NCBI GenBank assembly: GCA_033065855.1
Contig: JAVXUO010000473.1
Coordinates: 124,001-188,000, forward strand
Direction: 5' to 3'
Origin: Escallonia rubra
Taxonomy: Eukaryota > Streptophyta > Magnoliopsida > Escalloniales > Escalloniaceae
Length of the DNA: 64,000 bases
The notes below the pieces were generated by a model. That model ran no database searches and was not told where the DNA came from. It saw nothing but the letters and a program-made list of their open reading frames with translations. Each line of letters begins with the position of its first letter. Positions within the stretch are counted from its first letter, which is position 1. Shown piece after piece: positions 2,312-61,900 of the stretch. Both the position numbers and the translations under genes were made by a program.

Positions 2312-2614
2312 AAAAAAGTTTAGCGTCAAATATGTCTGGACTACTAAAGAAATTCAGGTGTGGATCATCATCACGAAAAACATCACCACCACGGCCATCA
2401 CGAACACCAATCCAAGCACCACCACAGCCATTCGTTCCTGGACGAATGAGTACGGGTTGTATGATAGATACCCAAGACAATTGAGAATTCAATCAAAACA
2501 TTCCAGATATTGATTACACGCTTTCACAAGATAGTCCGCATTTTAGTCAAGGACGCAGCTCGGTTGGTGAAGTTACTAATCCGTGGCATGATGTTAACCT
2601 GATGAGCAGTCACG

Positions 2615-14388: not shown

Positions 14389-15051
14389 CACACACACAAA
14401 AACACACACATCTCGAAGTTGGACTGATGCGGCACTTTGCGTATTCAACCCTCTTTTCTCTTTGCGTTAAATCTTCCGTTGACTGTCTTCTCACACACAC
14501 ATACACACAATAAAACCCCCCTCTTCTCTCTCTCTCTCTCTAGAAATATATATTCATGGAAGGTAGATAGATTCATATCTCTCTCTGCGTATATGTATAT
14601 ATATTAATAATCTCGGCGACGGCACCCATTTTCTTACAATCTTTCTGGCCTGTTAACCGCTGCAGCCCTTTCGCCGTGGAGCTTCTCCGGCCACTCGTGT
14701 CCGGTAAACTTTTCTATTTTCACCGAATATTTTGAAATTAGGTCTTCGCAGCTGAATTAGCACTCCTCTGTGCTCTTTTAGGCGACTGGGTTAGTTTTTT
14801 AGTTGTATTTCGTGAATTGGGAATGGAACCATTGAGATCTGTGTATGGTAACGATGGGTATTCCTTATTTGATTCTTACTGGAATTTAGGGCTTTTTTGA
14901 GCTCATTTCGTGAGTCTGATTTAGTGATTCTGATTTGGGGGTTAATCTATCGAAGGGGTGGAGACTAGTTGGAAGAGCTGATCTTTGTTTGGGCTGTAAA
15001 CTTAGGGTTTTGAAGCTGGATAGTCTGTTGTGGGTTTAATGTGCGAAAAGT
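14389..15051 (+). promoter_or_regulatory. Promoter and 5' leader region of the OBE4-like gene
   Basis: Upstream of the start codon are CA-rich tracts (14389-14412, 14490-14508), a CT microsatellite (~14522-14542) and TATATATATTA-type sequence (~14590-14608). A telo-box-like TTAGGGTTT (AAACCCTAA on the other strand) lies at 15002-15010, 42 bases before the ATG. CT-rich 5' leaders are common in plants. A donor-like CCG|GTAAAC at ~14702 raises the possibility of a leader intron, but I could not fix its acceptor. The transcription start is not determined. Confidence 0.45.
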
Positions 15052-18000: not shown

Positions 18001-21000
18001 ATTATCGGTTTTTTCGCCGGTAAGTGCTTTTCTGAATGTGGAACTCGTCTTTTTGTCGAGGTTCCTTTTAGTAATGATTTGAGCTAATTTTTCTATATTG
18101 CACGGGTGAATGACTCTTCAATTCCATGAATTATGACTGGCCTTTTGACATGACTAAGGACATCCTCATGGTCGGAAGCTAATTCCTCTTAGCCGTTCTT
18201 AGGTTTGACTTTTGAGGGCAAAAACTTGAGAAGTCTTGGCCTCAAATTTCAACTGTGGGCCTTTGTGTACATCTAAACAACCCCAGACACTATAAGGGCC
18301 ACCATTTAGGTATGACAGTCATCCTGAGACCTGGGGAGTAATTCGGCCAACCCTAGAGATGTCAAAGGGCCGGGCTTGGGCCGGCCCAGCCCAAGCCCAT
18401 CGGGCCTGTTGTGGGGCCGGGCCGGGGCCGGGCCAGTGGGGCTGCCAACCGGGCCGGGCCGGGCCGGGCCTGCCGAAGGGAAACCTAGGCCCAGTCCAGG
18501 CCCTGGCCCTAGGCCCAATATCTAGGGCCGGGCTTGGGCCGGGCCCGGGCCCAAAAATTTTTTTTTTTTTTTTAAATTTTCCGGTTATTCAAAATAAAAA
18601 CTTTAATTGCGATATTTTCTTGTTATTATGTACACAAATTCTAATTTAATAATGTGTATAAGCAAGTAAAGTAACAACAAATATTCTAATTTAAACCATT
18701 TCGTTAATTACACCTAGAAGAAACATTTTGCTCCAATTACGGCAGTAGAAGAAAATTTTGTTTATTGTTAGTGACATGTAGGTCCATAAATAATTTGTTG
18801 TTACTTAATTGGCATAAGTGTAGACGGATATAACAATAATCATACAGTTGAAGCCAATCTTTCCTTGTTGGATACAAATTGCATTCAATAAAGGAAATTT
18901 ATTTTCTATTTGCGAGAGACCAATATGCAAACAAATTAGCGAAGGCTTGTGTTTTGATTCTTGTCGAACTTTGGATGCTTGACAAACCTCCAACCAGCTT
19001 ACTGGAAGACTTGGATAAAGATGCGCATGGTGAACGGAGGCTAAGGCAGGTTTCTAGTTTTAATTAGTTTTTTTTTTTCAGTACTAATTTGTACCTAAAC
19101 CAAGGGAAAATTTGTTCCAGTCGGCAGGGTTAACAGGAAATAGGAACAACTGAAACCAAGTTTGATAGAGAATACACGCTATATAAGGCTAAACTTGCTG
19201 GGATCTTTGAACTGCTTTTATTGGCAAATTAGACCATCAAGTCAAGTCATGTCGGGTATGCTTGGTTCATGGTTTAAATCATTGCGTCACGGCAATTGGG
19301 AGTGGAAATGGGAGGGAAAAGGGGAGGGCAAGTTTTTTTTTTTGAAAAAGGTGGGGCAGGCCAAAATAGGGCTGATTTTGGGCCAAAATCGGGCCAGATC
19401 CGGGCCGAAAACGGGCCAAATCCGGGCCGAAAACGGGCCAAATCCGGGCCGAAAACGGGCCGGGCCTGTTTCGGGCCAAAACCGGGCCGGGCCGGGCCCG
19501 GGCCATTTTTTTGGAAATCCAGGCCTGGTCCAAGCCTAGGCCCAAGGCCCTATGCCTGCGGGCCTGCACTGTTCACCTGCGGGCCGTGCCGGGCCGGGCT
19601 TTTTTCGGGCCGGGTCGGGCTGGGCCGCGGGCCGCCCGGCCCGTTTGACACCTCTAGCCAACCCTATTCACAAGTAAACAAATAGGATAGGTGCATGGAC
19701 AAGGAAAGGGTTGATTTGGGCAGGGCTGGGTCATGAGGAATCTCTCCCAAGCCCAAGTAAGTTGCATTGGATACACGAAACGTCTCTTCTTTTACTGTTA
19801 ACTTATATTTTTAATATCTATATACAAAATAGACTAGAGAAAAGTCTAGGTAGCCTTGGCGCAACATTAACTTTGCTCCATTATGAACTGGAGGTCACAG
19901 GTTCTAAGTGCGAAACAACTTCTATATAATAGTTGGGGTAAGTTGCAAAACACGGGATTGTGAGTCTAGTGGACTGGGTCGCTCTTTTTCCATCAAGGAA
20001 AAGCTGACCTCAGACCTTGTTTTAGTTTTTTAATGCATACATCACATCTATCTTTGGTTTGAAAGTTTTGTAATATAGTCTTAGGGGCATTTCTAGTCAA
20101 CAAAAGGTTCTACTTTATATGTGATCTTCATAGCCTAAAAGTCATCTCCTCCCTCCCTCCCTCCCACACGAAGGTGATGGTCATAATGGTCAAATGCTGA
20201 TAGGGATTAAAGGTGGGTGGGAGCAAAAGGTTGTGGTGTGGTGAGCTATTGGTTTAGTTCTCCAGGACTCTGTGTTTATACAACAAATGTATATGTAGGA
20301 TGCAAACAAGAAGTAATGGTTATAAGAGTATAGTTATCCTGTTGGTTCTGGTGGAGATGGGTGGTGACACCAACCATAAAAAAGATATGTTGTTGACGCA
20401 TATTGGATTTAATAAAGTAGATGGTGGGCAGAAGACTAATGCATGGTGAACTATTGGATCTCTCTATGAATGGAAAAGGGGTGCTTTGGATTGGGAGTAA
20501 CGACTAGAGATAGGGAAAAAATAGGGGGGAAGAAGAAATGAGCATGGTGAGCTACAGCCACCATGTTTACGTCAATTAGTGATATCATCAAATATAACTT
20601 AAAAGTGAAACTAACAACCGGCCAATGGGCCGGTTGTTATTTTATCAAAAGGAAGAGAGGAATCCATGGATTATATGATGTTTACATCATCACGGCTTGC
20701 AGGAATGAATTTTATAAATGTTAAGGGTTACGGGGTCGAGTTTTGGATTGACAAAGTATATTGGTCCCTTGTTGCCAGCGAATCTGTGTTGTATATGTTT
20801 AAAGAAGTTTTTTTTACTTCTTATGAATGAGAAAGTACTAATGAAATGTCGATAGGCTTGAATCGGCGCGCCGCATTTTAACTATCACAATCCATCTCCC
20901 TCAAATCCTCAGGCAGCTGGTGGCAGGGGAGTCCGAATTGGCGGGGATGGGAATTTGTAGGGTGGATGGTTCTCCCATTAGAGGCAGCATAAGGTGTAAG

Positions 21001-24863: not shown

Positions 24864-27800
24864 CTACTCTTCGTCTTCATTAAAGTCAGAGTCCTCTGTA
24901 GGTTCATCACTCTCAGAGTCACTGAGAACATATCTTGTTGTATTCCCACGGTTCACCCTCTGTGGTCTAGCTCTTGGAGCTACAATTTCACTAACATCCT
25001 CAGTGCTGTCCAAACTAGAAGCAGAACCACCAGCATTGTCTTCGTATTCCTTGTCCATCCTTCCTAACACAGAACCACTTTTCTTGTGAAATGGAGATAC
25101 CCTCATCTTCCTCACTTTCTTTTCTGGTGATATCCCTACGTTCTCCGCAGGCTTGAAAGCTTCTGTGATCAGCTTCTGACCAATATTCGCTGGCTGCTTG
25201 CTGGCTGGCGCCCTTTTCTTCGTTGCTACAGGGGGTTTAGCTGCCATTGTGGTCGCTTTTGGTTTCCTCCCCCCTTTCTTCTTCTCTTCTGGGGCTTCAA
25301 CCACTTCTAGCTCAAAGTTCTCATCACTAGTTCTGTTCTCGTTTTCATCATCTGAGATTTCAGTGACAGTTGACAGGGGCTTCTTCTTTGCCACAGCTCT
25401 TCTACTGGGTTCTTTCTTCTTAGCAGGCATTTCTGTTTCCATGAATGTAAACGGATAGATTAAGTCAATGAACACAGATTCCATGAAAGAAAAAGGTTAA
25501 TAATGTAAAACCAGTTTCCTTAGTTATAATTAACTTTTTTATAATAGTATATTTGACACAATTCATGAACATCTTTCACATCTGACATAAATCATGTTTC
25601 TGTAGATCCTAAAATTGCAACAAGGCAAAAGCACACCAAATTTCTGGTTAATTCCAGAACGCCAGGAAATACACTTGGCAGATATGCTTTGGTGAAGCTA
25701 CTACAGCAGAAGAGAATATTTACCCTCAGAGTGATCAGGAGAAGAGTCAAGGTTATAAGCAGCAAGCCGGTCTTTCAGCTCAAGCACGTCATCATCGTCG
25801 CTATCTTCTTCTCTCACAACTGAAGAGGATTTTCCCTGCTGTGTTCAACGATGTTAATGGGGGACTGTTTGCGAAATAAAATCTATTATGGAAACGAGGA
25901 GGAGTTTTGTGATACCAAAAAACAAAGTCAGACCTTTTTAGCAGGAGCTTTCTTTGAGCCTGCTCTACCTTTTGGTTTCACCACCTCAGGAACTTTATCT
26001 GATCAAGGAGAGGAGACTATCCAAGCTAAGATACCGATAACCAAAATAAAGCAAAAACTAGGTTATCAGGTATATGAGCTAATTATTCTAAATTTACCTG
26101 TTTCCATTGGAGAACTAGTTGATAATTCCGTTGGTTCAGAAACAGGTTCTGCATTGCTGGCCTTCTTGGCATTCTTCCGTGGTTTAGGTGCTTGTTTGGA
26201 GGCCTTCAGACCAGCTTCACTCATCACCTTGCTTTTCATCTTTTTCCTAGCCTCTTCTGCTTGGACATCACTCTTATCTTGCTCCTGAATATGCACAAAA
26301 AATGAGACAAGAGACCCCAACAGGAACACACCAAAGCTTTACAGAATGTACTGAGCTTTTAAATCATACATCAAGTTCTTTCTCAAGAGCATCAAGATCT
26401 TTATTCCACAGTGACTTTGGAGTTGCCTTCCTTAAATCATCAACCTCCTTGTTGAGCTTATCCCTATCAGCACATAGCCCCTGAACCTTCTCAAGGGTTA
26501 GCGTTCCAATTGCCATTGACAGTAAGTACTCATAATCACTAGCCCGTATTCCTTTGCTGGTGGCCACCTCAGAATTTTCTTCAGTTTCCTCTGCATCATC
26601 AGTTGCCCCAACAACTACTGCTTCAGCTTTGGTTTTCTTTGGGAAAGGTGTGAAACCTTTTTCCTTCAATTCAAGAAACAGATCAGCTCTCTTCCTGTTG
26701 CTCACAATGATCTTTCCTTCCACAACACCTAAGATAAATCTAACTTTGTTTTCAAGCTTCAACAACTCCATTTCAAGATTATCCAGTAGAATTTTCTGCA
26801 AAAAATTAAGTTACCACAGTTAGCTGGCATGTTGCTTATGTCACAAATGGAAGTTTTCAATTTTACTAACTTGCCTTTCTTTTCTCGTAAAATTCAAGCC
26901 TAACATCAAAGAACTCCTCAAGAACTGCATACCAGAAAAACCGAAAGAGTGAGTACATGTCAAATCTCACAAGGTGATCTAAACATACAGCAAAACTGGA
27001 TACGCACTTTGTTCAGGTGTGTCATATTTCTTGATGACGCCTTTTGAGTCAAAAAGATGCATATTACTTGTGCTTATTGTAGTGGTTAGCTTAAATTTCT
27101 TCTGCAACCCCTCTTGCTTTGCTATCATTAAGTTCTCCTCGGACAAGATAACCTCAAAATGTACAGTAGTGTCATCATTATGCTCCCTGTAGTCCTGCAA
27201 AGATCAATTTACATATATAATTCCACCTCTTCTACACACACTTCAAAAACCTTCAACCTAAAGGGGGTTCTACCTTGATAAATGGATCCTTGATCTTATC
27301 GTTCCCTGTCATGATTGACTCAAGGAATTCCTTGTAATCCAGAGTCCACCTTCGGATTGGCAGCTCTGAAATTCTAAGTGTAGTTTCATTGACTTCCTCT
27401 ATAAGTCCAGTGATTGTGTAGCTAACCCCAGATTCCTTTGTTGCTGTTTTCTCAATGGTTCCTCTAAATCCTTTGTACCATGGATCCATAGGTTCCATTA
27501 GCTCATCATTCAGTAAATGCTTCACGTTAGCAACAATGTCCCTTGGGCTATAATTTGGTACATATGAGCTCCAACCTGTCCCTATTCCTTCACTTCCATT
27601 GACTAAAACCATAGGTATAATTGGCATGTACCTGAAAAAGAAAGCTGGGCTATTAATCATCTTGCATATTAGTGCAATACCACGTTACTGACCAGAAGTT
27701 AAAAAAATTACCAAGTAGGCTCAATAGTCTGCCCATCTTCGTTGAGGTAGTCAAGGAGAATATCGTCATCCTTAGGAAACAAAAACCGTGTGATAGGAGA

Positions 27801-30800
27801 AAGCTGAGTATATATGTACCTAGCACTCGCATGATCTTTGCCTCCCTGTAAACAAAAACTTCAAGCATCTTCCACAAAGTACGAGTCATGATTTTTGAAA
27901 ATCATCATGTTATAATTCTCACCTGGTGACGAGTGCCAAACTGGCCATTTGGTTGAAGAACATTTATATTGTTGCTGCCCACAAAATCCTGAGCCATGCC
28001 AATAATTGTACTGGCAAGAGACTGCTCACCATGGTGGTAAGCTGAATGCTCAGATACATAACCAGAAAATTGGGCAACTTTGGCTTCCTTCACAAAGTTC
28101 CTCTTGAAAGAACAGAAAAGAATTTTCCTTTGGCCCGGTTTTAGCCCATCAACCATCGACGGTATGGACCTTTGAAGATCTGCCATTGAGAAGAGTATAA
28201 GCTCCTTGTTGACAAAGTCACTGTACTTAATAAGCTTCTCCTTTTGATCAAGATAGGTGCCAGGCTACAGACAAAATTGAGAAGTTGTCAGAAATCAATT
28301 CAATAAGTGCAGGCATCTTTACTAAAAGCAAGAAGTGGGTAACAAGTGACTGGAAAAAATTGCACCAAAAATATTTCTGAATGTCCAACCTCAAAGTGTC
28401 GGAGCCAATTTTTCCTTGCCTCAATCTTCTTCTTGCTAAAGGCAAGCTCTATTGCATCCCCATCTTGCTCATCCTCCCAGACAAAATCTTTCCTGTGCTT
28501 TTCAAGATCTTGGAAGTATTCCTTACCTTCCTTTGACGTGCTTGTACCCAACCCCTGTCAGGGCAACAAATGAATAGTAAAAATCAAGGTTCATGTCATA
28601 CCCTAAGTTACTCTAACTGGCCCACTGCTTTTACTTTGAACATGCAAACCTTATAGTACTTAATAGACCAACCAGTCGCACTTCCACCGAGACTTTCCTT
28701 CCAGTATTCGTACTCGGGCATAGAATAAAAAGACAGCACCTTCCCATTTCTATGAGTAGCCTGTACGCCAATATATGCAAAAAATTGAAAAATATCCATC
28801 TGTCCGGAATTACAATTTAGACCAGTCCACTAAGCAATACGGACCTTCACAATAGGTGTAATGAACTCTATTAAGAAAGATGGAACTTTCAGCAACGATG
28901 GCCAAAATGAATGAATGAAGTTAATCAATAGCCCTTTGATGTGGGAACCATCATGATCCTGCCCAAATGTTTATTTGTCAACAAAGTGATTCAGAAACAG
29001 ACCACAATTAAATCATCCACCAATGATGATTCAAACTACCTGATCAGTCATTATCATCAGGTGACCATATCTCAATGACTTGACACTCTCATAATCTTTC
29101 CCATGCTGGAGCCCAAGAATCTGCTTGATGTTCTGGATTTCAGCATTGTCCATGATCTGTTTATGGTTTGCTTCCCTCACATTGAGCAGTTTACCTCTCA
29201 ATGGAAACACTCCATAGTAGTTTCGACCCACAACAGAAATTCCAGCCATCTGTATAATTCTTCATTTTAGTTAAAAAGCCCCTACTGCAAACAGAACTTA
29301 TAAGTTGAATCAAGAGTGTGACATCTGACAACTTACTGCAAGAGCTTTAGCCGAGTCTCCTTCTGTCAAAATCAAGGTGCATTTATCAGAATTCTTCCCT
29401 CCAGCGTCATTAGCATCTTCTAGCTTAGTGATCCCAGTAATCCTTTGTCTCTTTGTTCCATCAGTCTTCTTAAGGTCTTTGCTGTGTTTAAAATCTGCCC
29501 ACGAGAGCAGACTTTCAACAACTCCAGACTTGGCCACTGCAAAAGAATTGACCAACAACCATCAAACCAACATCATTAAAGAATTATCAATAAAGAGATT
29601 AATAATGCGGCATAGATCATTACTACAGACCTTTCTTCAGGAAATCCTGTGAGAGTTCACATTTAGAACCGAAACTGCTTTGCCGAATTGTCAAAGTCTC
29701 TTTAGTTTGAGAATCGAAAGCTGGGTTGTCAATAAGAGCATTGACAAATACCCATAGATGGTTCTTCACGTTATGGGCTTTGAGGTTGGCATTTTTGTTC
29801 TTCTTATTTACAACAGTCATGACGTGATTTGTTATCTGGTTAGTGATGTAATCAACATGTGTCCCACCCTTGATTGTCGCAATTGCATTCACAAAACTGA
29901 CCTGGTGACACCAATCATTCCAGATAGCACAAATAAGGTTTAATACTAGAGAATGAATAAGTAGTATAATTTTTGAAGGTCCAATCAATTGTTTTAACCA
30001 CCTGTTGAAACTGCCCCTCACTCAAACTAACGCATACTTCCCACCTCTCATTAACCTTCTCCACAATTCTGTGAAAATTCAAAACCAAGTTAGAATCCAA
30101 AAGGTTGTGATAAAGCTAAGAAGAAACATAGCGTTAGAAGAAACCTTGGGAGGGAATCTGGTCTGGACTTGGAGGCAGATTCTAGATAAAGATTAACATA
30201 GTCAAGAAATGATTTTACAGGAACTCGTTGCCCATTTAATTCAACTTTCACAGTCTTCCCAAGGCAGCCTGCTATATCAATCACCCGCTTTTTCATTAAT
30301 GCAACAACATCTTCTTCCAGATGAGTCATGTTGAACTTTGCTAAGTCAGGCTTAAATGTAACTTTGGTCCAGTTTTCACCCTCCTTGCACTTTGTTATAA
30401 TGGGCTCAGATTTTGTCCCCATGTTGTTAGAGAAAACCTATAAAAAAGCAGACGAAATATACACATTACTAACACAAGTAATTAACCTAGAAGTTGCAAA
30501 AAAAATTAATTTTTCTATTGATATTCACATTCTTAAGATGAGAAGCAAGTAAATATCAGTAAAATAATTGACACTGGCAAATATTTGTCTTTTTTTTGGT
30601 GATACAACTGAAACTGGAAAAAACTGTAAATGGTTGACTGTCAGAAGCTCAAAGCCTAAAATATGTTTACCTAACTACCAAAAGAAACTTCAAATAGTCA
30701 ACGGAAAAGAATCCAATGGAAACCCAAATCGCCCAACCTCAATATGTACCAATAAAATGTTTGCTCTGAGCAGACGTAACAAATAATCAAGACCAATCGG

Positions 30801-32184
30801 CATCCAAAAAGCATGAGATTATAAATCCATCAATGTCTGTAAATGACAAAGTAAACCTTAATTTACACTGCACATATGTTGATACATCATGAACACCTCT
30901 GTTAAGCATCAGCCACGAGAGGAGTATGAAAAACCGGAATTTATGTACGAAGCCTTACCTTAAGTGCTATCAAAAGAACAGTAATCAAGAACATAAATGC
31001 ACAGAAAATGAAACAGGAAAAATGAAGGAAAAAAAAAAGATAAAGATAAACAAATCCAGCACACCATATCAGACTACTCAGAGTATGGAACCCTTGATCA
31101 CCACATAAAATTCCATAAATATCAAAATGTCTTCTTTTATACACAAAAGCCATCAATATAAGCTCATATGAACCCTAATCTAGAACTCAAATCAATAGCA
31201 AATTCCAAGAAATGCACATCAATAATGAATCACTAAAACCCTAATCTAGAGCTGAAACCCTAAATCAACACATTATACCCATAATTTAATCAAAATGTCA
31301 TGATGAATATCACTAAATTCATTAATACAACCACATGAACCCTGATCTAGAAGTCAACTCAACAGAAAAATCCGCAAAATGCACATCTGAAACTGAAAGC
31401 CTAGAACCCTAATCTAGAACTGAAATCGATTGCAGATCCTGGAAATGCACGTAAAAAAAAAAACCGTTAAGAGTCCATACAATCGCTAAATTCATCAATA
31501 AAACCCTAATCTACAACTCAAATCAACAGCAAAATCCACAAAATAGAAAGTAAGATACAAAACAATCGTATCCAACAAAATGAACTCCCTAGTACGAATT
31601 AGACCTCATACCTGCTTGTACTTCTTCTGCCTCTTCCCATCCGCTGTCTCGATCACGAAATCCGTCGAAAAAATGTTCGTCAGCTTAGCCCCGTACCCAT
31701 TCCGCCCACCCGTCGTCTTCTTCTCCTTATCGTCATAGTTACTGCTAGTCAACAAATGCCCAAATATCATCTCGGGCACATAAACCCCCTCCTCCTGGTG
31801 CACCTCAATAGGCACTCCATCCCCACTGTTATAAACACTGATTAGATTCTGGTCCGGGTCAATTACGACTTTGACCCAGTCCATGGAGGGGTCGCGCTGC
31901 TTGTTGTCGGCGGCGTTGACGAGAATCTCGTCGAAGATCTTGTAGAGGCCGGGCACGTAGGTGATGGGGCGGTGGACGATCTGGTTGCCCTCCCAAACCC
32001 ATAGGGATTGTGTGTGCTTCTCGATGGAGCCGATGTAGGTGTCGGGGCGGAGGAGGATGTGCTCGAGCTGGGTCTTCTTCTGGTAGGTCTCTTCGATGGT
32101 CTTCCCCGTGGTGGGGGCGGTGGTGGGTTTGGGGATGTTGGCGGCGGTGCTGGGTTGTAAGGGGAGTTTCTTTTCGGTTGGCAT
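24864..32184 (-). CDS. TOP2: DNA topoisomerase II (type IIA), nuclear
   Basis: ATP-dependent double-strand DNA passage enzyme. Exons on minus: 32184-31612, 30437-30145, 30068-30002, 29901-29631, 29536-29337, 29249-29040, 28958-28845, 28760-28650, 28554-28390, 28264-27923, 27845-27712, 27631-27274, 27194-27008, 26924-26875, 26795-26370, 26284-26098, 25992-25934, 25838-25724, 25432-24864. All phases join, giving 1,476 residues, close to the ~1,470 I recall for Arabidopsis. Seen: GHKL ATPase motifs (VNAADN, GRNGYGAKLTNIFS); TOPRIM EGDSAKALA (~460) and DQDHDGSH across exons 6/7; PLRGKLLNVREA; QPNGQFGTR; catalytic Tyr in SARYIYT (~792); the winged-helix/tower core; and a Lys/Asp/Glu-rich C-terminus ending DSDFNEDEE. 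Intron 14 uses a GC donor (AAG|GCAAGT). Intron 1 is the largest (~1.2 kb) and carries telo-box repeats. The acceptor of exon 18 could shift by 3 bases (CAG|CAG). Confidence 0.95.
26825..26874 (-). other. Non-canonical GC donor (GC-AG intron) in TOP2
   Basis: The exon ending at 26875 (EKRK) is followed on the minus strand by GCAAGTTAG rather than GT. The acceptor of this intron is TTTTGCAG before 26795. Frame stays open and the protein alignment is continuous across it (EFYEKRK to KILLDNLEME). GC-AG introns are a known minor class in plants and often show a strong AG|GCAAGT match, as here. Confidence 0.8.
31171..31509 (-). promoter_or_regulatory. Telo-box cluster in TOP2 intron 1
   Basis: AAACCCTAA occurs at 31236-31244, 31255-31263 and 31501-31509, with AACCCTAA at 31171-31178 and 31405-31412. 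These are within about 450 bases of the first exon's donor. They sit in a degenerate repeat (ACCCTAATCTAGAACTCAAA, then GCAAAATCC and AAATGCACAT) recurring about five times. Telo-boxes near plant transcription starts are known in genes active in dividing cells; TOP2 is such a gene. Function here is inferred. Confidence 0.55.
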
Positions 32185-32559
32185 GGTGGTGAACTGGTTG
32201 TGGCGGTGGACTACTGGTGGTGCTGGTGGCTCAGAGAGAGAGAGAGAGAAGGCGAGATGGGGAAGGGAGGGGGGTGGTGTTTAAAGTGCGAGGGGTAAAC
32301 GGTAAAGCGAAATTTGAAATTTGAATTGGGAGGGATTTTGAGATGGTGGTCTTGTGTGGACGGCTGGGATTGTTCTTGGCCCACGTGAGTGTCAAATTGT
32401 CAAGGGGAGATGATTTTTTTTTTTTCCTTCACTGGTGCAACTGAAATTGAACAAATATAAAAGGTTTACTTAGGTCCTAGTATGGGCAACATTTGCTACA
32501 TCACTAGCTAGCTAACACGGGGATTACCACCTCTAGCAGTTGCATGAAATACAGAAAGG
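32185..32559 (-). promoter_or_regulatory. TOP2 upstream region
   Basis: Immediately upstream of the ATG (minus strand) is a CT/GA microsatellite (GAGAGAGAGAGAGAGA on +, ~32233-32248), likely in the 5' leader. Beyond it lies AT-richer DNA with a T-run at ~32414-32424. No clear TATA box was fixed. It runs into LINE debris. Confidence 0.4.
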
Positions 32560-44819: not shown

Positions 44820-44975
44820 TTGGCCATATAAAATTTGGAAGCAGACCTTACAACTCCCTTCCCACCATGTCATAGGCTCATAGCCAAGCCAAGTGGATAA
44901 AATCCACACAGCACCGGACAAGAGACCGTAAAGCAAACACACACACACACACGCACGCCTACCTGAAAAACGCAA
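44820..44975 (+). promoter_or_regulatory. Probable promoter and leader of the FTR variable-chain gene
   Basis: CATATAAAATT at ~44824 and GGATAAAATCC at ~44896 are TATA-like, 70-150 bases before the ATG. An AC microsatellite (~44937-44955) lies in the presumed leader. Which TATA-like site is used cannot be told from the sequence. Confidence 0.4.
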
Positions 44976-45539
44976 ATGACATCTCCGGCATTCTTCTCCG
45001 CGGCCCCGCCGATGAATCACCACCACCATAACTACCGCATCCACCACCTCACAACGAGAAATGACTCCTCTCACTTAATTTCGTTTCGAACTTGTACAGC
45101 TAGTGCCTCCGCTTCAGCTTGTGCGTGTGCCAGTGCCAGCTCATCACCGCTCCGAAAAACACGGAGAACAATATCCCCTTCACCAATCAGAGCTTCGACG
45201 AATTCCACGGCAACCGTCGACGATCCGTCGGTGGCATCCTCGTCGGCGACGGCGTCGCTGTACTCCGAGGAGGACGAGGCGGCGGCGGCGGCGGCCGCGA
45301 AGATCGGGGCTCGGGTTAGGGTTAAGGGGCCGTTGAAAGTGTACCACGTCCCGAAGGTACCGGAACTGGAATTGACCGGAATGGAGGGGGTGTTGAAGCA
45401 GTACGTAGGGGAGTGGAAGGGCAAGCGCATTTCGGCGAACCTGCCGTACAAAATTGCATTCGTGGCGGACATCGGAGGGCGCGAGGGCGTCAAGTTCGTC
45501 GCGCATCTCAAGGAAGACGAGTTCGAGTACCTCGAGTGA
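44976..45539 (+). CDS. FTRA: Ferredoxin-thioredoxin reductase, variable (A) chain, chloroplast
   Basis: Small structural subunit of the chloroplast heterodimer that passes electrons from photosystem-reduced ferredoxin, through the [4Fe-4S] catalytic chain, to thioredoxins. This chain has no catalytic residues; it clamps and stabilises the catalytic subunit and helps dock ferredoxin. 187 residues, intronless. Residues ~1-75 are a Ser/Thr/Ala/Arg-rich transit peptide; ~100-187 form the SH3-like barrel with family-typical text IGARVRVKGPLKVYHVPKVP, LTGMEGVLKQYVGEWKGKR, ISANLPYKIAFV and FVAHLKEDEFEYLE. The ATG chosen is the first, and it gives a full transit peptide; a second ATG lies 11 codons on. 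GC-rich 5' coding half. Long open frames on the opposite strand are shadows. Confidence 0.95.
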   Translation: MTSPAFFSAAPPMNHHHHNYRIHHLTTRNDSSHLISFRTCTASASASACACASASSSPLRKTRRTISPSPIRASTNSTATVDDPSVASSSATASLYSEEDEAAAAAAAKIGARVRVKGPLKVYHVPKVPELELTGMEGVLKQYVGEWKGKRISANLPYKIAFVADIGGREGVKFVAHLKEDEFEYLE

Positions 45540-51300: not shown

Positions 51301-51336
51301 ATTATAAGAGGAAGAAGTTATTACCTAATTCCATTA
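48331..51336. other. No gene recognised; minor direct repeats
   Basis: Degenerate duplications are visible: TTGTCAACCC...CTTGTTGAAG near 48770 and again near 49075, with GGGCTTAAACCATTG at 48853 and 48994. TGTAATGTTTGCTCAGGTCA at ~49830 recurs as TGTAATGTTAGCTCAGATCA at ~49920. The GC-richer 50090-50950 part has no recognisable protein. No RNA gene seen. Confidence 0.4.
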
Positions 51337-51904
51337 GGGTCCGATTGGTAAATGGAATTGGAATTGAAATTGGGAATTGCAATTCAATTCCAATTCTCAA
51401 GGAATTGGAATTAACTTGGAATTGAATAGAATTTGTAATTCTATTGATTGGTTAGCACAGAAAATTAGGTTGAGAATTGAAAATTGCTAAAGGAAGAAAA
51501 AAAAAACATAAAAATTGTTAAAAAATTGTAAAAAAGTGAAATTGCTTAACTAAAAATTACATTTTAAATTACTAAAGTAAAATTTGTAATTCCATTAAAT
51601 TCAAATTGCTAAAGCAAAAAATATATTTTGATCACAATAGCCACAACTAATTTTATTAAGTTGCACAACAACCATTTATAGATATAAAAATATGAAATTT
51701 TTCCGAAGAAAGTCAATAAAAATCTTCACAGCACCAATTAAAATGCGAGTCACAATTTTTTCAATTCCCATAGATCAACATCCAGTAAAAAGAACAGTTT
51801 CAAAATAGCTCCTAAAGGAATAACATCTCATATAGACAATAACAAAAAAATAGCTCCTAAAGAAATAATATTTCTGATAGGTGATTAGTCAATCATATCA
51901 AATT

Positions 51905-52030
51905 TGTCGTCCACGCCTAGCTTGATATTCAGCTAACATGCCCTTAACTAAATTCTCTTTAAATGTGGTCCTTTCAGTCGTAAGTCGAACAGATCTTATC
52001 ACTTCCTTATCGCTCGTGTCATCTGAATTG
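51905..52030 (-). pseudogene. Unassigned C-terminal coding scrap in the Harbinger-like element
   Basis: The minus strand reads DDTSDKEVIRSVRLTTERTT, then KENLVKGMLAEYQARRGRQI and a stop. The clean end and charged composition look like the C-terminus of a real protein. It could be from an element-encoded protein or a third captured host gene; no motif decides. Confidence 0.35.
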
Positions 52031-52189
52031 GAGCAGCTGCTTATTTTGCATCAACCTCGACCAAATAGTTCTACCAAATAATTCTGCACATAAGAGCAAA
52101 TATATTTACCGCTACATAAAAATAGAAACTGATTTATAGAGTATAACTAAAATGAAAAAAACCAATTAACCAACATTCTCAAATTTTCC

Positions 52190-52440
52190 TACAGCAATGT
52201 TTTAGCATCATGCAAGAATAATGATCCAATCTAGGTTGAACCCTGTAAACACTAGACATGATCTCAAAGTATCTCCTTCCCTCCTCTACAAGTCCTGAAT
52301 GACTACAAGCGCTTAACAAATGAGTGAAAGTGACATGATCAGGCTCCTGATCGTTGCTAACCATGAGCTCAAATTACTCGATCCATTTTCTATAAAAAAA
52401 AGCATGCACAGCAAAACCTGCAAGCATAGCTGTCCAAGCT
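52190..52440 (-). pseudogene. Captured PPR gene fragment, C-terminal repeats
   Basis: The minus strand reads NSIAWTA-LAGFAVHAFF and then, after a frame change, PDHVTFTHLLSACSHSGLVE and GRRYFEIMSSVYRVQPRLDH. These are the typical last repeats of a PLS-class pentatricopeptide protein, a family acting in organelle RNA processing. The text stops matching after HYSCM, where the usual VDLLGRAG continuation is absent. No start, no targeting peptide, no E/DYW domain. Confidence 0.85.
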
Positions 52441-52459
52441 ATCAATCCGGGTTTTTAAT

Positions 52460-52483
52460 CCCAACCCCTTCCTACCACAACCA
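52460..52483. repeat. 24-bp direct repeat, copy 1 (partner at 53831-53854)
   Basis: CCCAACCCCTTCCTACCACA and the next four bases recur exactly at 53831-53854. On the minus strand both copies read GCGRKGLG in PPR frame, so both are PPR sequence. The ALDH3 block lies between them. The pair looks like a target duplication or template-switch scar made when the ALDH3 piece entered the PPR piece. Confidence 0.85.
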
Positions 52484-52587
52484 CTTTGAACATGAACAGT
52501 AATAATAGTATAGATGATGCAGTGCGCTTTGAACATGAACAGTAATAATAGTATAGCTGTCCAAGCTATACTATTATTACTGTTCAT
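52484..52587. repeat. 30-bp direct repeat plus 23-bp perfect palindrome arm
   Basis: CTTTGAACATGAACAGTAAT and the next ten bases occur at 52484-52513 and 52527-52556. ATGAACAGTAATAATAGTAT and three further bases (52535-52557) pair perfectly with 52565-52587 across a 7-base spacer, so the single strand would fold into a 23-bp hairpin. This sits next to the PPR/ALDH3 junction. Confidence 0.9.
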
Positions 52588-52699
52588 ATATATAGCACGT
52601 TCCTACTGTAGTCTATTATTATCCTTCCTATCACTGCATTTCTTCTCCAAGAGAATAACAAAGCCTTAAAAGAAAGTTGAATGCAATGGATTTCTAGGA

Positions 52700-53505
52700 T
52701 TTTACCGTTAGAATAGGGAGTAAAGGACCAAAAATTTCCTCAGACATGATCAAAGAGTCTTCTGGGACATCCAGTAAAATGGTAGGAGCTATCTTTCTGC
52801 CAAGTGTGGAAAGAAGCAAAAAATGACATGAAGTGCTTATCCCACTTAAATTACCCCCTTGAGGAACTACGCACATGCAGTAAACTAAAACTTACAGGTT
52901 GCTTTCATCTCTTTGACCTCCATGAACTATCTTACCAGAAACCTTATCGTCATCCAATAGCTTTGTCAAACGAGCAAAGTGGTTGGAACTCACAATGCGA
53001 GACAAGTCTTTTGAATTTAACTGATCATCCCCATAAAAATTCTTCAACTCAGTTTTTAAAGCATCTACCTGGAGAAGAGGTGGACAAGAAAATGGATCAC
53101 CATTTACGTGTCAGAAGATAAGTTGCTTCGTATGCAGGGAACCTTACCAACTTTGGAGCATAATCTTTTGTTGTTATAATGTAATCAGGAGAAACGCAGG
53201 CTTGTCCATTGTTGCCCCCCCACTTGCCTGCAATGATACGCCTTGTTGCAACCTTTAGAATATGAGGTGATCACATAAGATAAAATGGCAGTGATGGCAC
53301 CATATGTATGAAACCATTACTAAGTTTGACAAAGGAAAAACTCTCTTTACTTGTAACTTGTAAGTTTATGTTTGAATCCACAATAACAGGAGATTTTCCT
53401 CCAAGCTCCAACACTACAGGTGTAAGATGCTTTGCAGCGGCAGCCAACACAACCCGTCCCACTTTCCCGTTCCCTGCAAAAGTTATTTCTTCGTTATAAA
53501 TCACG
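52700..53505 (-). pseudogene. Captured ALDH3 (aldehyde dehydrogenase) gene fragment with introns
   Basis: On the minus strand, in order: EEITFAGNGKVGRVVLAAAA then AKHLTPVVLELGGKSPVIVD (53504-53390); TRRIIAGKWGGNNGQACVSP then DYIITTKDYAPKL (53255-53145), which includes the catalytic Cys; DALKTELKNFYGDDQLNSKD and LSRIVSSNHFARLTKLLDDD (~53070-52930); IAPTILLDVPEDSLIMSEEI and FGPLLPILTV (52805-52700). This is the class 3 ALDH core, i.e. oxidation of aliphatic aldehydes with NAD(P)+. Non-coding gaps between blocks sit where introns would, so capture was at the DNA level. The N-terminal third and C-terminus are missing; no independent start. Confidence 0.88.
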
Positions 53506-53859
53506 ACTTAGGGATCAAGTATGAATAGTCACAGTGTTTTAAGCCAATGCCTACTACAGCTAACTTGCTATTTTAACTGGCAAAGCTTATTTCAGGTAAT
53601 TGACGAAATTAAAAAATAAGTCTCTTAAGTAACCACACTTTGGGGTGTCCCTTGTCATAGGAATCTCTTCCTACCTGTGGACATATACATCCAATAACAA
53701 AATCTCTGACCATCCAACACTATCCAACAAGAAAAAATAAAAGGTGTGAGAACCCATGAAATTTACGGGGCATCGACATGCATTCTACTCCCCCACAATT
53801 TATTCTAGACCATTTCATATATTTAAAAAGCCCAACCCCTTCCTACCACAACCAGTAGC

Positions 53860-54125
53860 ACAAGCTGAAATTATACAAGTAAGGGTAACTTCATTTGGTT
53901 CGAAAATTGTCTTTAATCTCATGCTATTACTAAAACACTGATTTCACGAAAATGCGGAAGTTAACGAATTCCTGGATACCAAATCTTTGTCAGGCATTTC
54001 GTCGAACAGTTGGTGTGCATCTTTAGAGCATCCCTCTTTGGCATAAAGAGACACTAAACGGTCACCAATGAACCCATCTCTGTAATTCGATGACTTCACT
54101 ATTTTGGCATGAACGACCACCATAA
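53860..54125 (-). pseudogene. Captured PPR gene fragment, N-terminal repeats
   Basis: The minus strand from ~54122 reads VHAKIVKSSNYRDGFIGDRL, then VSLYAKEGCSKDAHQLFDEM and PDKDLVSRNSLTSAFS. After a frame change come FEPNEVTLTCIISACATG and GCGRKGLGF. These are PLS-class PPR repeats; the last motif overlaps the 24-bp repeat and is continued, beyond the ALDH3 block, by the fragment at 52190-52440. Together they suggest one PPR gene fragment split by the ALDH3 piece. Confidence 0.85.
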
Positions 54126-55014
54126 CAAACTATCACTTCAAAATCCAAAGAGTCCACTAAATCACACTTATCCAAACACTTTGAATTTCTGCCAGTGCCA
54201 GGCAACCAAAAAGAGCAGCTCTACAATCTTTAACCCAAACTACAATCTCTGTAATTCGATGACTACACTACAATCTTTAACCCAAACTCAAAATCAAAAT
54301 CAATAACTGCTCCGGCCACACTACCAAGTAACATCACCCAAACTCAAAATCAATATCAATAACAAAGTTAAGATTTGAAATACATAGATACATACCACAA
54401 CAGCCAAATTACCGTCGCTGCCGTCAAAAAGAGTAGATCGTTGCCGCCGTCAAAGCAGCAGATCGTTGCCGCCGTCGCCGTCAAATTAGTTGATCGTAGC
54501 CACCACCGTATGCACAGTAGATTTCCGCTTCCATGGTGAGGTACAATCATAGAGAAGAGAGAATGAAGAGAAGAACTGCCGAGGTTGAATCAGAAGAACG
54601 AAGGAAAAGAAGAAGAAGGAAGAGAATGTCGGGCAGAGGCTTTGAGTGGAGACGGAGAAACGGTGACAAAAATATAATGGACTGGAATTATAACTTTGAG
54701 GTTGGGCCTTAAGAATTGGACTGTGGGCCTTAAGGTATGTTTTTAATTTCATGGAATTGGGTATGAATTGTAATTCCAATTCCAAAAAAGTCGTCCAATC
54801 AGCAGAATTGTAATTCATAAGGTCCAATTCCGAAATCTAATTCAATTCCAAGGTTAATTCCGTGATCCAATCGGACCCTTAGGGAAAAGCAACTTTGAAA
54901 TTAACAGTTTATGTAATTGAACAGTGGTGGAAGTGTAGTGTTAATTTTTTCACAAAAAGAAGTAATGCGAGTTATTATTATGTATCTTAGCTAACATGGA
55001 CATATATTAATTAG

Positions 55015-55980: not shown

Positions 55981-58900
55981 AGAGCTAACTACTCGGTTGA
56001 CTATTGAACTGTTAGACAAATTTAACTTTACGTCACTGGATATAGATTTCTGTTAAAGGGACCATTAGACTCATTAAGTTGTTTAATTAAGTCATTCTGT
56101 TAAGTTTTGTCAAGCTTATTGATTTAATTTAGGGGCAAATATGTCACTATATTTTTCTTTTTTCTCCCTCCTTGGTGAGAAATCGGAAAAGTTCAACGAA
56201 AATGACTTTATGTACTTGTGCAATGGAGAAACCGCCGAGGCGTACTTGTGCAGAAAACAACTACTAGTACGCGGCAGACCCGGCGAACCAAAACAATGCA
56301 GAATTCTTTCTTTTACGACACGTAGACTCAGAAAAACGAAGAGCATAATTTCGGGAGAAGGAAAAAAAAATTATGTTATGTTTTTCAGACTTGGACACCG
56401 TATATATATACAACACAGCACTAAAGGGTGCAACTCTTTACTGAAGAGTGCAATTGTTGGCAAAGGTTACAACTTTCTTTATGGTAATTTTTTTTAAATA
56501 ATTTAAATTTATATATTTAAAATATTTTTGTCCCAAAACGAATAAAGCCTGATGGGCCACAACCACGGACCGGACGGAAGGCGAGCCCGTGTGTTGTGGA
56601 CGTTTAGTCAACCTAGATCCTCCTTCCTTACAAAACTTGGGTACCCCCAAGGGGTCCAACCTTTAGCTCAAGGCTAGAGCTTATAAAGAGACCACATATA
56701 CTTTATCTCTTCTATGTGTAATTTTTCTTTTTCCTACAAGTTGAACTATCAACTTCAACTTTAATTTTCTCATTCACTTTTCATTTGTTTTAAATTTGTG
56801 AATATACTATGGTCATCTACTTCGATAGATGAGCATAAGTCAGTTTGTTCCCAACCAAATTATGGTGTGGAACCCATTTGAAAATTGAGTCAAAGATGGC
56901 TTCTCAATAATGAGTTTAAAACCTAGATTCCAACAATCCCCCACATGAATAGAAAATTGACTGGACACTATACGCAAAGAAACGCTGACACTAGAAAGTG
57001 TTCAATTAGAACGACACTGGATCGGGATAGGTTGCCGATGGCTTTGAACCTTCCCTAGTGAGAACTATCAGATTTACTGGTTAACCAATAAACATGATGT
57101 TTTGAACTGTTCAACCTTTAGTGTAAATCGAGACAATAAAACTTCACGCAATATCGCTCAAACATTGTTTTGAGGTTCTCATTGTTGTGTTCATTTTGGC
57201 CCTAAACAACTCCTGGTTTTTCATGAGTACTCTCTGAGAATTCAGCCTTGCAATTCTCATAGAATGGCCCACTTCTTACTCACATAGGCGATTTCTTATT
57301 AGGAGGTTCCTACTGCACCCCTACTAGGATTTCCAAGATATAAGAGTTATTAAAAGCATAGTTTAACCTAAGCTTTTGTAGGTGGCACTGTCTGCTCATC
57401 ATAGGAATGGATATGAGGGTTATAACCCCCCTTCCCCGCCCCACAGTGCTTCATCTGAGTCGTATTTACATAATTCGATTTTTCCTTTGAACCTAGATCT
57501 TGGGATCTCCAGTCAGCTAGGCAGGATTTCCATTATAGCAACTCTTTAGTTCATAGGCTTAAGACCCATTCCCCTCAATGACGTATTTACTTTCTCTCTA
57601 GTCAAAGCTTTTGTTAACGGATCCACAATGTTATCCTTTGACTTCACATAGTCAATAGAGATAATTCCACTACAGAGTAATTGTTTAATGGTATTGTGTC
57701 TGTGACATATGTGTCTAGACTTACTGTTATACATACTGTTTTGTACTCTTCCAATTGCAGATTGGCTATCACAATGTATGCAAATTGGCGGCACAAGCTT
57801 AGGCCAATTTGGAATATCCTCCAAGAAATTAAGAAGCTACTCTGCTTCTTCTCTCGCTTTATGTAAAACAATGAATTCAAATTCCATAGTGGATCTGGCA
57901 ATGCATGTCTGCTTTGAGGATTTACAAGAAATACCTGCTCCTCCTAATGTAAACAAATCTCCACTTGTGGACTTTGTTTCATTACAAACTGATATCCAAT
58001 TAACATCACTGTATACTTCTAATACAGCTAGATATCTGGCATAATGCAGCCCAAAATTTAAGGTATATTTTAAGTACCTTAAAACTCCTATAATAACTAT
58101 CCAGTGATTCTTCCCGGATTGCTAGAACATCTGCTTAATTTACTGACAACATATGCTATATCTGGTCTTGTGCAATTCATGACATACATTAGACTACCAA
58201 TTGTTAAATGTAAATTTACATTTAGTGGTATCTTCACAGGACTAGCATCATAACATTTAAATTTGTCTAGCACTTTCTCAATATAATGAGATTGTGACAA
58301 GACTAATCAATTTGATGTTTTGATAATTTTCATACCAAGTATAACATCAGCCACACTTAAATCTTTCATATCAAATTTACTGGTTAACATTTTCTTTGTA
58401 GCCTTAATGAATTCATTATTGCTCCCGATAATGAGCATGTCATCAACGTAAAGACAAATAATGACAAATCCTTTTTTAGTGCCTTTAACGTAGACACATT
58501 TATCACATTCGTTAATTCTAAAGCTATTTTTAATAATGACTTTATCAAACTTTTTATGATATTGTTTCAGAGCATGTTTTAGTCCATAAAGTGACTTAAC
58601 AAGCTTACACGCCTTCCTCTTTTGATCAGTCGCTACAAACCCCTCGGGTTGCTCCATATAGATCTCTTCATTTAGATCTCCATTTAAGAAGGTAGTTTTC
58701 ACATCCATTTGGTGTATCTCAAGATTATTAATAGCTGCAATAGCTATCAATATTAGAATGGATGTTATTCTAGTAATTGGTAAGTATGTATCAAAATAAT
58801 CAAGACCTTCATTTTGTCTGTATCTCTTAACAGCCAACCTGGCCTTATACTTTTCGATCGTTCCATCAACTTTCATCTTTCTCTTGAAAATCCATTTACA

Positions 58901-61900
58901 CCCTAAGAGTTTATTTTCAGGAGGAAGATCCATCAATTCGCACGCATGATTTTGCATGATGAATCTTATTTCACTATTAATTGCCTCTTTCTAATGTGGA
59001 GCTTCAGGACTTTACATTGCTTCACTGTAGATACAAGGCTCATTTTCTAATAAATATGTCAAAAAATCAGGACCAAAAAATGTAGACGTTCTTGCTCTCT
59101 TGCTATGTCTTGGTTCATCTTCCCTTGTGAGGGTTCTTGGTCCATATTAGTTCTTTCTAATGAATTCCGTTCTTGTGCAACTCTATAAGGAAATATTTCT
59201 TCAAAGAAATGTGCATTCCTTGTCTCTATTATGGTGTTGACGTGTATGTCATCAACTTCAAATTTATGCACCAAGAACCGATATGCAGAACTATGGTTTG
59301 CATATCCAATAAAAATCCCATCAAGAGTTTTAGGTCCTGTTTTGACCATTTTAGAAGGTGGAATTGTTACCTTTGCTAGACACTCCCACACTCTGAGATA
59401 TTTGAAAGAAGGAGGACGTCCTTTCCATAACTCATATGGTGTCTTGTTCAACTTCTTGTGGGGTACTTTATTAAGAATGTGATTTGCAGTTAAGACTGCC
59501 TCCCACACAAGTTATCCGATAGTCCGGAATTTATCAACAAAGCATTCATCAGTTCCTTTAAAGTACAATTCTTTCGCTCAACAATTCCATTTGACTGAGG
59601 CATAAATGGTGCGGTGGTTTCACGAATAATTCCATGATTGACACAATATTTTTCAAGAGGGAAACACCTCTATCACTTCTTAGTACTTTGATTTTTCTGC
59701 TAAGTTGATTTTCGACTTCAATTTTGTATTGCATAAATGCTTCTAAGGCTGGATCCTTGCTTCTAAGCAAATATACATAACAAAATCTTGTACAGCCATC
59801 AATAAAAGTAACGCAATACTTTTTTTCTCATGTAGATTGTACCACCATTAAGTCACAAATATCACTATAAATTAGACTTAAAGGTTCCGTACTTCTTTCA
59901 GTTGACTTGAAAGACGTTTTTGCTTAATTGCTTCAACACAAATTTCACATGCTTTGTGTGAGTCAAAATCCATTTTAGGCAATAAACCATTTTTCACAAG
60001 CTTTTGTATAGAATCATAATTCACATGACCTAATCTAAGATGCCACAATTAGGAATTTTAGCATGTAAGCAGGAAAAATATTATTATTAATCTCAAAATT
60101 CGGTACAACTTAGGTACGATGATCATTACATTTAACTAAAATATACCATTACAAATGTACTCTTTTCCTACAAACATGTCACTCTTAGTGAGTACAAACT
60201 TGTCACTCTCAAGTACTAGCTTAAAACATTTTTTACTAAACAATGAGCCTGAAACTAGATTTTTTCGAATGTCCGGCACATGAAGAACATTGTTGAGACT
60301 TAACTCCTTTTCCGATGTCATCTTCAAGACCACTTTTCCCATTTCTTGCACTTTTGAAGAGGAAGAGTTTCCCCTAAATCGATTCTCGTTATTGGCACTT
60401 CAATATGTAGTAAACATACTTCACTTAGAGAATACATGTCGAGTAGCACCAGTGTTTACCCACCACTGCTTGGAATTTCCAACCAAGTTGATTTCGGATG
60501 CCACCGCAGACAAATTCAGATCTGTAACATCCTCGGTGATTTTTGTAACTTCCGTCATGTTGGCTTGAGATTGCTTTCCGTTCTTTGAGTTTCCTTTATT
60601 TTTGCGACTGTAAAAATCCTTAGCACGATGGCTAGCTTTGTTGCACACATAGCAATAACCACTAAACTTCCTATTTTTCTCACTGCCATTGGAAATTGAG
60701 CCGCTCGCTCTATTTGGACCATGTGAAGCGGAATGTTTCCTTTCTTTGATGGACCTTGCTCGACAACATTTGCCTTGGCCTTTTGATGATAATTACCGGC
60801 CTTCTCTCTAACTGATGATTATCCTATTCAATCCTCAATCTCACAATTAAGTTTTCAAGCTTCATTTCCTTGCGCTTGTGCTGCAAGCAATTCTTAAATT
60901 CTTTTCAAGTATGAGGCAATTTTTCAATCAATGCAGCCACTTAAAAAGATTCTCGAAGCACCATACCTTCCGCATGAATGTCATGCAGTATTAGTTGAAA
61001 CTCTTGGACTTGACTAATCACAGTCTTGGAATCCATTATCTTGAAATCAAGGAATTTACCAATTACAAATTTCTTGGAGCCGACATCTTTGGTCTTGTAT
61101 TTCTTTTCCAAGGATTCCCACAATGCTCTCACATCTTTCATTGGACTATATATGTTCTACAACGCCTTGTCTAATCCATTTAGGATATAATTCTTGCATA
61201 AGAAATCATAATGCTTCCAAGCATCCACGACAACCACTTTATGGCTGTCAAGATTCTCACCAAGTTCTTGTGTATTCTCTTGCAAGAATCTTGCCAAGTT
61301 CAAGGTGGTCAAATAGAACAACATCTTTTGTTGCCACCTTTTCAAGTCCTTTCCATTGAACTTTTCCAGTTTCTCACCAAGTCCAACGGATCCATGACCA
61401 GGTGCTACATAAGGCGTTGCATACACAATCCCGCCACCATGTTGTTCATTGGGATTAATCGGTCCACTTTCGGGAATGGTTTCACTAGTAGCCATTGTTA
61501 TATCTATTAAAAGATTATAACAACAATTAAGTTAAAATCCAGTCTAAACCAAACTTATAACCAAAGCAGATTCTAGGAACACTAAAATTAAATTCAGAAA
61601 CTGAAAATAACTTTAGAATAATGATTGATATAATCAAATAACAAAATGAAATTTGAAAACAGTTTTTCTCCACATGTAACACTAAGTGCAAGAATAAAGT
61701 CTTAAAATTGTTGGAAAAAATGCTTTGTGTACTTGTGCAGAAAACAACTACTAGAAATGATGCAGTATAGCAAGCTGAACGAACATGATTAGACAAGAAT
61801 TGTATTAAAAAAACTCACTGCAGAATTACAGAAACAACAATGGAGAAATCGAGGCATGAATTTGATTCATTGTCCTTAAGACTTTATTCGTCCCGCAACG

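Follow-up and report, generated by a model that had tools for sequence, protein, structure and literature searches.

The DNA analysed here is a 64,000-nucleotide stretch of the Escallonia rubra genome (contig JAVXUO010000473.1, positions 124,001 to 188,000; hereafter the window), which lies on contig C1786 of that genome (G000, 566 Mb). Between positions 51337 and 54878, the window contains a 3,542-bp non-autonomous PIF/Harbinger transposon of the Pack-TYPE kind, which carries pieces of a pentatricopeptide repeat (PPR) gene and of an aldehyde dehydrogenase gene (ALDH3) (Table 1). A preliminary description made from the letters of the window had given these limits and this content, and both were right when the terminal inverted repeats (TIRs), the TTA duplication and the minus-strand PPR and aldehyde dehydrogenase pieces were read again.

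Table 1 Features of the 3,542-bp element and its target site (window coordinates)
Feature	Position	Strand	Basis or match
Left target-site duplication, TTA	51334..51336	.	letters read directly
Left TIR, GGGTCCGATTGG	51337..51348	+	perfect over 12 bp against the right end
Remnant of the 3' end of the family transposase gene	51832..52058	-	85.5% to C645 (L060:777-1003), downstream of its DDE_Tnp_4 exons
Remnant of sequence immediately 5' of the transposase open reading frame	52062..52135	-	80% to C645 (L060:2389-2460)
Captured PPR piece, 3' part of the gene	52209..52462	-	87% to PPR gene C2177 (L059:1812-2063)
Further PPR patch	52460..52506	-	47/47 bp to C3195 (L038:3032-3078); joined over the 3-bp match CCC
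Patchwork filler, 92 bp, at the left ALDH3 junction	52507..52598	.	copies of PPR piece and donor in both orientations, snap-back hairpin
Captured ALDH3 piece, intron to intron	52599..53816	-	four exons, three introns; 1,206 bp of donor C1005 (L045)
ALDH3 exons	about 53358-53486, 53145-53252, 52895-53068, 52706-52798	-	alignment to donor C1005
Right junction	53815..53854	-	2-bp overlap TC (donor end = PPR piece), then PPR with repeat copy 2
Captured PPR piece, 5' part of the gene	53856..54113	-	83% to C2177 (L059:2510-2785)
Right end common with transposase-bearing C645	54415..54878	-	71.5% to L060:5256-5681
Right TIR, CCAATCGGACCC	54867..54878	-	perfect over 12 bp against the left end
Right target-site duplication, TTA	54879..54881	.	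letters read directly

Terminal repeats of 12 letters prove little by themselves, because chance matches with up to two mismatches are common in shuffled sequence: the window holds four such matches to the TIR against 2.8 expected, and 31 of 100 shuffles reached four. Exact matches in the window number two, i.e. the two element ends, at which a longer inverted repeat of 44 nt (75%) was also seen. What proves the element to be real is that the same end-to-end unit was found at four other sites with differing 30-bp flanks; these four complete copies carry the same cargo and likewise have the perfect 12-bp GGGTCCGATTGG at both ends. A chance pairing of TIRs is ruled out by these further copies. 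The preliminary description had named two ways in which it could fail, namely that the TIRs stem from two separate insertions or that the PPR and ALDH3 sequences run on past 51337 or 54878. However, both ends co-occur at five sites, and the cargo stops inside the TIRs.

PIF/Harbinger elements have short conserved TIRs starting with G, which the TIRs here fit, and the 3-bp TTA/TAA duplication of this superfamily is present in the window copy. The TTA duplication, the perfect 12-bp TIRs and a DDE_Tnp_4 domain in the relative C645 (see below) bear out the earlier label of a Harbinger-like element. A Pack-MULE (Mutator-like element) was ruled out by the 3-bp duplication and 12-bp TIRs, which are not the 9-bp duplication and long TIRs of Mutator, and a Helitron by the presence of TIRs and target duplications. 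The element is of the Pack-TYPE kind in that it is non-autonomous and holds host gene pieces whose parents lie elsewhere (the ALDH3 donor in C1005 and a PPR parent candidate in C2177); as deduced from its copies, it moved together with this cargo.

When 40 of the 215 candidate places in its own genome were scored against the first 101 bp of the element, six, counting the window itself, matched at 100%. The ALDH3 stretch 52694-53500 gave 12 matches from 11 candidates: seven are elements with the same cargo (the window, C1389, C2700, C2520, C857, C871 and, in part, C1417), one is the donor C1005, and the remaining four rows fall at three loci (C2861, C2300 and C1393) with 65-77% identity. Cargo-sharing copies, for which the preliminary description had suggested a genome search with the TIR and the element start, occur at seven sites, and the proposal that the element transduplicated host DNA and could spread it agrees with what we found. 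Five copies are complete, with lengths of 3,542, 3,540, 3,530, 3,541 and 3,543 bp, and their 30-bp flanks are all different, which speaks against a single segmental duplication. TTA or TAA stands identically on both sides of four of the five, the window copy included. As for the other two, C871 (L033:2291-6552) is missing 45 bp at its left end and stands head-to-head with sequence from the left part of a further relative, in inverted orientation (80%); the 8 kb examined contain no left TIR. C1417 is a half copy that ends at a run of N.

The family of this element includes a transposase-bearing member. The relative C645 is 5,444 bp long, is flanked by TTA on both sides, has the same perfect 12-bp TIRs and holds DDE_Tnp_4 transposase exons between them (Pfam, E about 3e-10 each), together with a PPR piece. 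In the window element, the transposase core is absent between two remnants of this coding region; the open reading frame (ORF) at 51898-52050 encodes a peptide similar to the tail of the C645 transposase gene, and Pfam gave no match in that tail (51832-52058). Another relative, C1369, has a Myb/SANT-like ORF (Pfam Myb_DNA-bind_3, E 1e-16); in coding members of the superfamily, an ORF1 of this type stands beside the transposase. C1369 (L044) and C1570 (L043) are 4.3-kb relatives that are 99.2% identical; C1369, the one of the two that was translated, also carries a PPR piece. C2392 (L035) and C645 (L060) are 99.6% identical over 1,179 bp spanning the transposase exons, so the coding lineage was likewise copied recently. 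Ten relatives that lack the ALDH3 piece were checked for target duplications: eight show the same TTA or TAA at either end, and C2464 and C3029 do not. The right end that the window element has in common with C645 shows, by eye, two GGCCCA motifs, a TATATT and a CT-rich leader, which we take to be a putative promoter. One relative, C2464, has itself been entered by a 909-bp insert (L037:2837-3745), whose ends match in inverted orientation at 38 of 40 bases (GGGTTAATTACTCACGG...) and which is flanked by a 9-bp duplication AATAATATT; it contains part of a histone gene, which Pfam assigns to Histone (E 9e-19) and which by eye resembles H2B, and is a Pack-MULE-like element nested in a Pack-PIF.

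For the minus-strand PPR pieces of the window element, Pfam gave PPR_2 (E 1.2e-7, in the ORF at 52179-52373) and PPR (E 1e-4). A query of 53780-54450, which takes in some of the PPR piece along with the sequence to its right, gave 51 matches with 40 of 158 candidates scored, family membership being checked for part of these matches only. In the relative C2681, the PPR piece is unbroken and runs for 974 bp at 85.7% identity to a 633-aa DYW-class PPR frame of C2177. The order PPR-ALDH3-PPR noticed before therefore stands as far as the pieces and their order are concerned, but the two PPR ends are one piece, of about 970 bp and about 86% identity to the best parent candidate, that was split by the later ALDH3 capture. 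That candidate, C2177, is the best found and may or may not be the actual donor. The PPR piece has an in-frame TGA at 53944-53946, which occurs at the same place in the six other cargo copies and in 8 of 13 relatives, whereas C2177 has CGA and C239 has CAA there; C2392 and C645 do not cover the site, and C1610 and C3029 have no match at it. Because all seven cargo copies and eight relatives have this inherited stop, no PPR protein has been maintained. When C645 and the window element were compared with the parent candidate over a 134-bp PPR stretch, 8 bases that depart from the candidate were common to the two, 4 such departures were found in the window only, 7 in C645 only and 1 was a three-way difference. 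The common bases suit a single PPR capture, but may also come from a common unseen PPR paralogue.

The second capture can be traced to its source. Pfam identified Aldedh on minus-strand exons in the element (E 1.2e-9 and 8.6e-8), and the two of the four exon frames without a match of their own were located through their identity to the donor; the Pfam family is Aldedh, within which we presume the gene to be an ALDH3. Over 1,206 bp, 8 substitutions and 5 gap events separate the donor C1005 from the majority sequence of the copies (99.3% identity, substitutions only). In C1005, ALDH exons lie on both sides of the captured stretch, and no TIR (≤1 mismatch) was found in the 10 kb examined. The ALDH3 intron positions had been described as retained, and the piece indeed matches the donor across four exons and three introns; since these introns are kept and the piece runs from intron to intron, the capture came from DNA. 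Of the parental genes, which the preliminary description had suggested mapping, the ALDH3 donor has its introns in common with the cargo, and C2177 stands as the candidate for the PPR piece. One of the five gap events is a 7-bp tandem duplication at an ALDH3 exon edge (53349-53362), which is missing in the donor, doubles the 5' splice-site region and is invariant among the copies that cover it.

The edges of the ALDH3 insert bear a scar, described here in element numbering (window position minus 51336). On the left, PPR sequence extends up to 1126 and is taken up again at 1124-1170, a patch (window 52460-52506) that skips about 220-236 bp of the PPR piece as sized against C2681 and C3195. Then come inverted donor sequence at 1167-1183 (with one mismatch to about 1195), PPR at 1191-1213, inverted donor at 1210-1220, left PPR at 1222-1233 (from 1217 in C2681 and C1610), donor at 1230-1240, inverted PPR at 1237-1251, 11 templateless bases and finally the donor from 1263 onwards. 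The patches from the two templates are 47, 17, 23, 11, 12, 11 and 15 bp long (17 bp in place of 12 when C2681 or C1610 is used), and neighbouring patches overlap mostly by 3-4 bp, with 2-4-base matches across the joins. On the right side, the PPR bases lost beyond the junction amount to 202 bp against C2681 and C2464 and 199 against C1503. A 27-bp repeat flanks the insert, with copy 1 at window positions 52457-52483 and copy 2 at 53828-53854 (26/27). The 11-mers of the PPR and donor templates cover 73 of the 92 filler bases; none of 5,000 window stretches and none of 2,000 shuffles reached this value, the largest being 23 in both controls. Moreover, the captured stretch has its right edge at L045:4128, and the inverted donor patch (L045:4089 to about 4117) derives from immediately beyond this edge; the two broken ends may hence have used a single place in the donor. 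To judge from these letters, the patchwork is of the kind that repair synthesis would leave after switching templates repeatedly.

Differences among the copies provide an approximate age. The five complete copies differ pairwise by 8-17 substitutions, and the departures from the majority are 2 in the window copy, 6, 7, 10, 9 and 14 in others and 4 in the half copy. Of these 52 changes over seven copies, 48 are private to one copy and 20 are C>T or G>A; the mostly private changes suggest a burst of copying. Cytosine decay by methylation was weighed as a source of the C>T and G>A changes. The density of substitutions is about three times as high outside the ALDH3 cargo as within it, with 7 of 7,777 sites changed in the ALDH3 part (52599-53816) against 45 of 14,940 outside it (51337-52598 and 53817-54878; Fisher p 0.0011). 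Among the 45 outside variants, two had no aligned relative and were left out; 21 of the other 43 recur in relatives, compared with 6.5 expected after matching by base and CpG context, and 14 of 30 against 5.0 expected when C871 is omitted. These data suggest that conversion with older members caused the outside excess, although site-specific mutability may be an alternative cause. Purifying selection on the ALDH3 part might also account for its low variation, but conversion appears preferable. Because the outside variation suggests such conversion, the ALDH3 part is the better clock. Assuming 7e-9 mutations per site and generation, we arrive at rough ages of about 0.13 million generations for the burst and 0.5 million for the capture.

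Taken together, the element is very probably a Pack-TYPE PIF/Harbinger derivative that acquired its cargo in two steps, took up the ALDH3 piece in a repair-type event and then spread. It is a deletion derivative of the transposase-coding family and would have been moved in trans by the transposase of that family. The first step, long ago, brought some 1 kb of a DYW-class PPR gene into an ancestor. The second came much later: the PPR piece would have been broken or been under re-copying when repair synthesis switched to ALDH3 intron-exon DNA; this synthesis would have copied about 1.2 kb of ALDH3, hopped between element and donor, and closed the gap with small deletions and the 27-bp duplication. 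The chimeric element then reached at least seven sites in a short time. What the sequences show are the structure of the element, its family and copies, the ALDH3 donor, the order of the captures and the patchwork at the junction; movement in trans, repair as the pathway and any transcript are inferred.

Several observations weigh against this interpretation. Transposition itself is deduced from the copies. The terminal duplication of one complete copy, C2520, is imperfect (TAA/TAG), and no empty allele was found, the 300 bp to the left of the window element having themselves as sole genome match and the right flank not having been searched. No intact transposase gene was found, the C645 match carrying one TGA and one TAG in its domain (introns not modelled); moreover, the transposase of C645 and the Myb-like ORF of C1369 were not met together in one examined element. 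As to the scar, 11-mers leave 19 of the 92 filler bases uncovered, and for 11 bases (52588-52598) no template was seen. Taken singly, each of the two 11-bp donor patches is weak evidence and may be self-copied, because the hairpin is what a strand folding back on AGCTAT would write, and an extra donor 11-mer (at 4948) lies inside a PPR patch and was taken as chance. Finally, the acceptor is deduced, in place of the true progenitor, from relatives that are 96-99% identical in several stretches.

The ALDH3 piece may have entered through a break or stalled fork in a resident element, by transposition-independent gap filling or FoSTeST, and not through abortive gap repair after excision; we rate this possibility at slightly less than an even chance. 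The capture is interior, and the PPR sequence lost next to it is limited to about 220-236 bp on one side and 199-202 bp on the other. A study of animals attributed interior captures in small gaps to processes independent of transposition, and multicopy captures to fork switching with transposition afterwards (PMC8277862). On the other hand, PIF elements of Medicago are said to follow abortive gap repair generally (PMC2213677), and two-sided deletions around a filler suit abortive gap repair too. The scar alone does not separate excision gap repair from break or fork repair.

The cargo lies on the same strand as the C645 transposase exons and the transposase remnant in the window, which means that transcription from an element promoter would run in the sense direction. 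We therefore rejected the antisense transcript proposed in the preliminary description; a transcript starting from the right end of the element, if made, would be a sense chimera. Transcribed cargo is often reported for Pack-TYPE elements, although it does not strictly define them. A coding function was also rejected, since no unspliced frame in the element exceeds 116 aa and the PPR frame has the inherited TGA (a spliced product was not modelled); for the same reasons, the cargo is most likely a passenger. It is nevertheless conceivable, if improbable, that the seven-copy cargo acts in trans, its transcripts or small interfering RNAs (siRNAs) dampening the donor ALDH3 gene. In favour of such an effect are the seven copies, the promoter-like right end and the close match to the donor (99.3% by substitutions over 1.2 kb, with introns); against it, the cargo is sense, not antisense, and no inverted repeat of the ALDH3 part occurs among the copies examined. 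It is equally doubtful that capture and spread created a multicopy sense source of transcripts or siRNAs matching donor exons and introns at 99.3%; if they did, one repair accident would have tied an ALDH gene to genome-wide transposon silencing within the last few hundred thousand generations.

Repair synthesis as the route of the ALDH3 piece must further be weighed against its arrival inside a second transposon, such as a nested Pack-MULE or a Helitron. Nesting does occur in this family, as the 909-bp MULE-like insert with its histone piece in C2464 shows, and the 27-bp repeat (26/27) flanking the ALDH3 insert could be viewed in the same light. This route is very unlikely, however, given that no terminal repeats were seen at the ALDH3 edges, that the left junction is a patchwork and the right one a 2-bp overlap with PPR sequence lost on both sides, and that the ALDH3 piece was met only in this element family and the donor (11 candidates). 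That the region is a decayed pair of host genes between unrelated TIR-like words can practically be dismissed: 12-mers with up to two mismatches do arise by chance in a window of this size, but four other sites have the 3.5-kb unit complete with both ends, identical TTA/TAA duplications flank it at three of these, and the ALDH3 piece is 99.3% identical (substitutions only) to an intact gene elsewhere.

Gene capture by PIF/Harbinger elements, which the preliminary description held to be less common, is less exotic than stated, having been reported for grapevine in 2008 (PMC2528002) and counted as Pack-PIFs in maize and rice in 2022 (PMC8903248). By its description, Pifvine-3 of grapevine resembles the present element in being a PIF with mostly TAA/TTA duplications, host exons together with introns and some multicopy pieces; in contrast, its pieces lie in the 5' region of the element, and the available part of the report tells of neither two-step capture nor junction patchwork (PMC2528002). 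The Pack-TYPE elements of maize and rice, PIFs included, are likewise non-autonomous TIR elements with host gene pieces, but that work is a genome-wide catalogue whose main text lacks the terms "gap repair", "chimeric" and "microhomology" (PMC8903248). Animal Pack-TIRs share gap filling or fork switching, short microhomologies and, when multicopy, subsequent transposition, although they come from animals and the word Harbinger is missing from the main text of that study (PMC8277862, 2021). Maize Ds2 and Ds-l4 contain filler DNA, a few pieces of it from genes and once with an intron kept, for which faulty break repair was suggested as the cause; unlike the present element, they belong to the hAT superfamily (PMC3260210, 2011). 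Cactavine-5 of grapevine also has a PPR gene piece inside a DNA transposon, but it is a CACTA element in which the piece is opposite to the transposase ORF, whereas here the sense is the same (PMC2528002). For PIF elements of Medicago, abortive gap repair has been proposed (PMC2213677). Harbinger is not named in the main text of a 2026 review of plant gene capture (PMC13317346), and no report of a "Pack-Harbinger" or of "sequential acquisition" by PIF elements was found in the literature searched, most subscription papers lying outside it. Hence, the kind of event is already known and this case is unusually complete: one genome contains a relative with transposase exons, others that lack the second cargo, the donor in its place, a readable scar and fresh copies. 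How cut-and-paste elements acquire genes is still debated, and the case can be used as a worked example for excision repair versus fork switching and for testing whether young cargo silences its donor.

Elsewhere in the window, we noticed an Oberon-type PHD protein (15040-18087), topoisomerase II-like exons with HATPase_c and DNA_topoisoIV domains (27253-32280), a ferredoxin-thioredoxin reductase alpha chain (44967-45539) and a Copia-like reverse transcriptase (RVT_2; 58307-59511). In addition, a 429-aa frame at 2606-3895 resembles a BED/hAT-type transposase by eye, Pfam giving no family for it at E 0.001.

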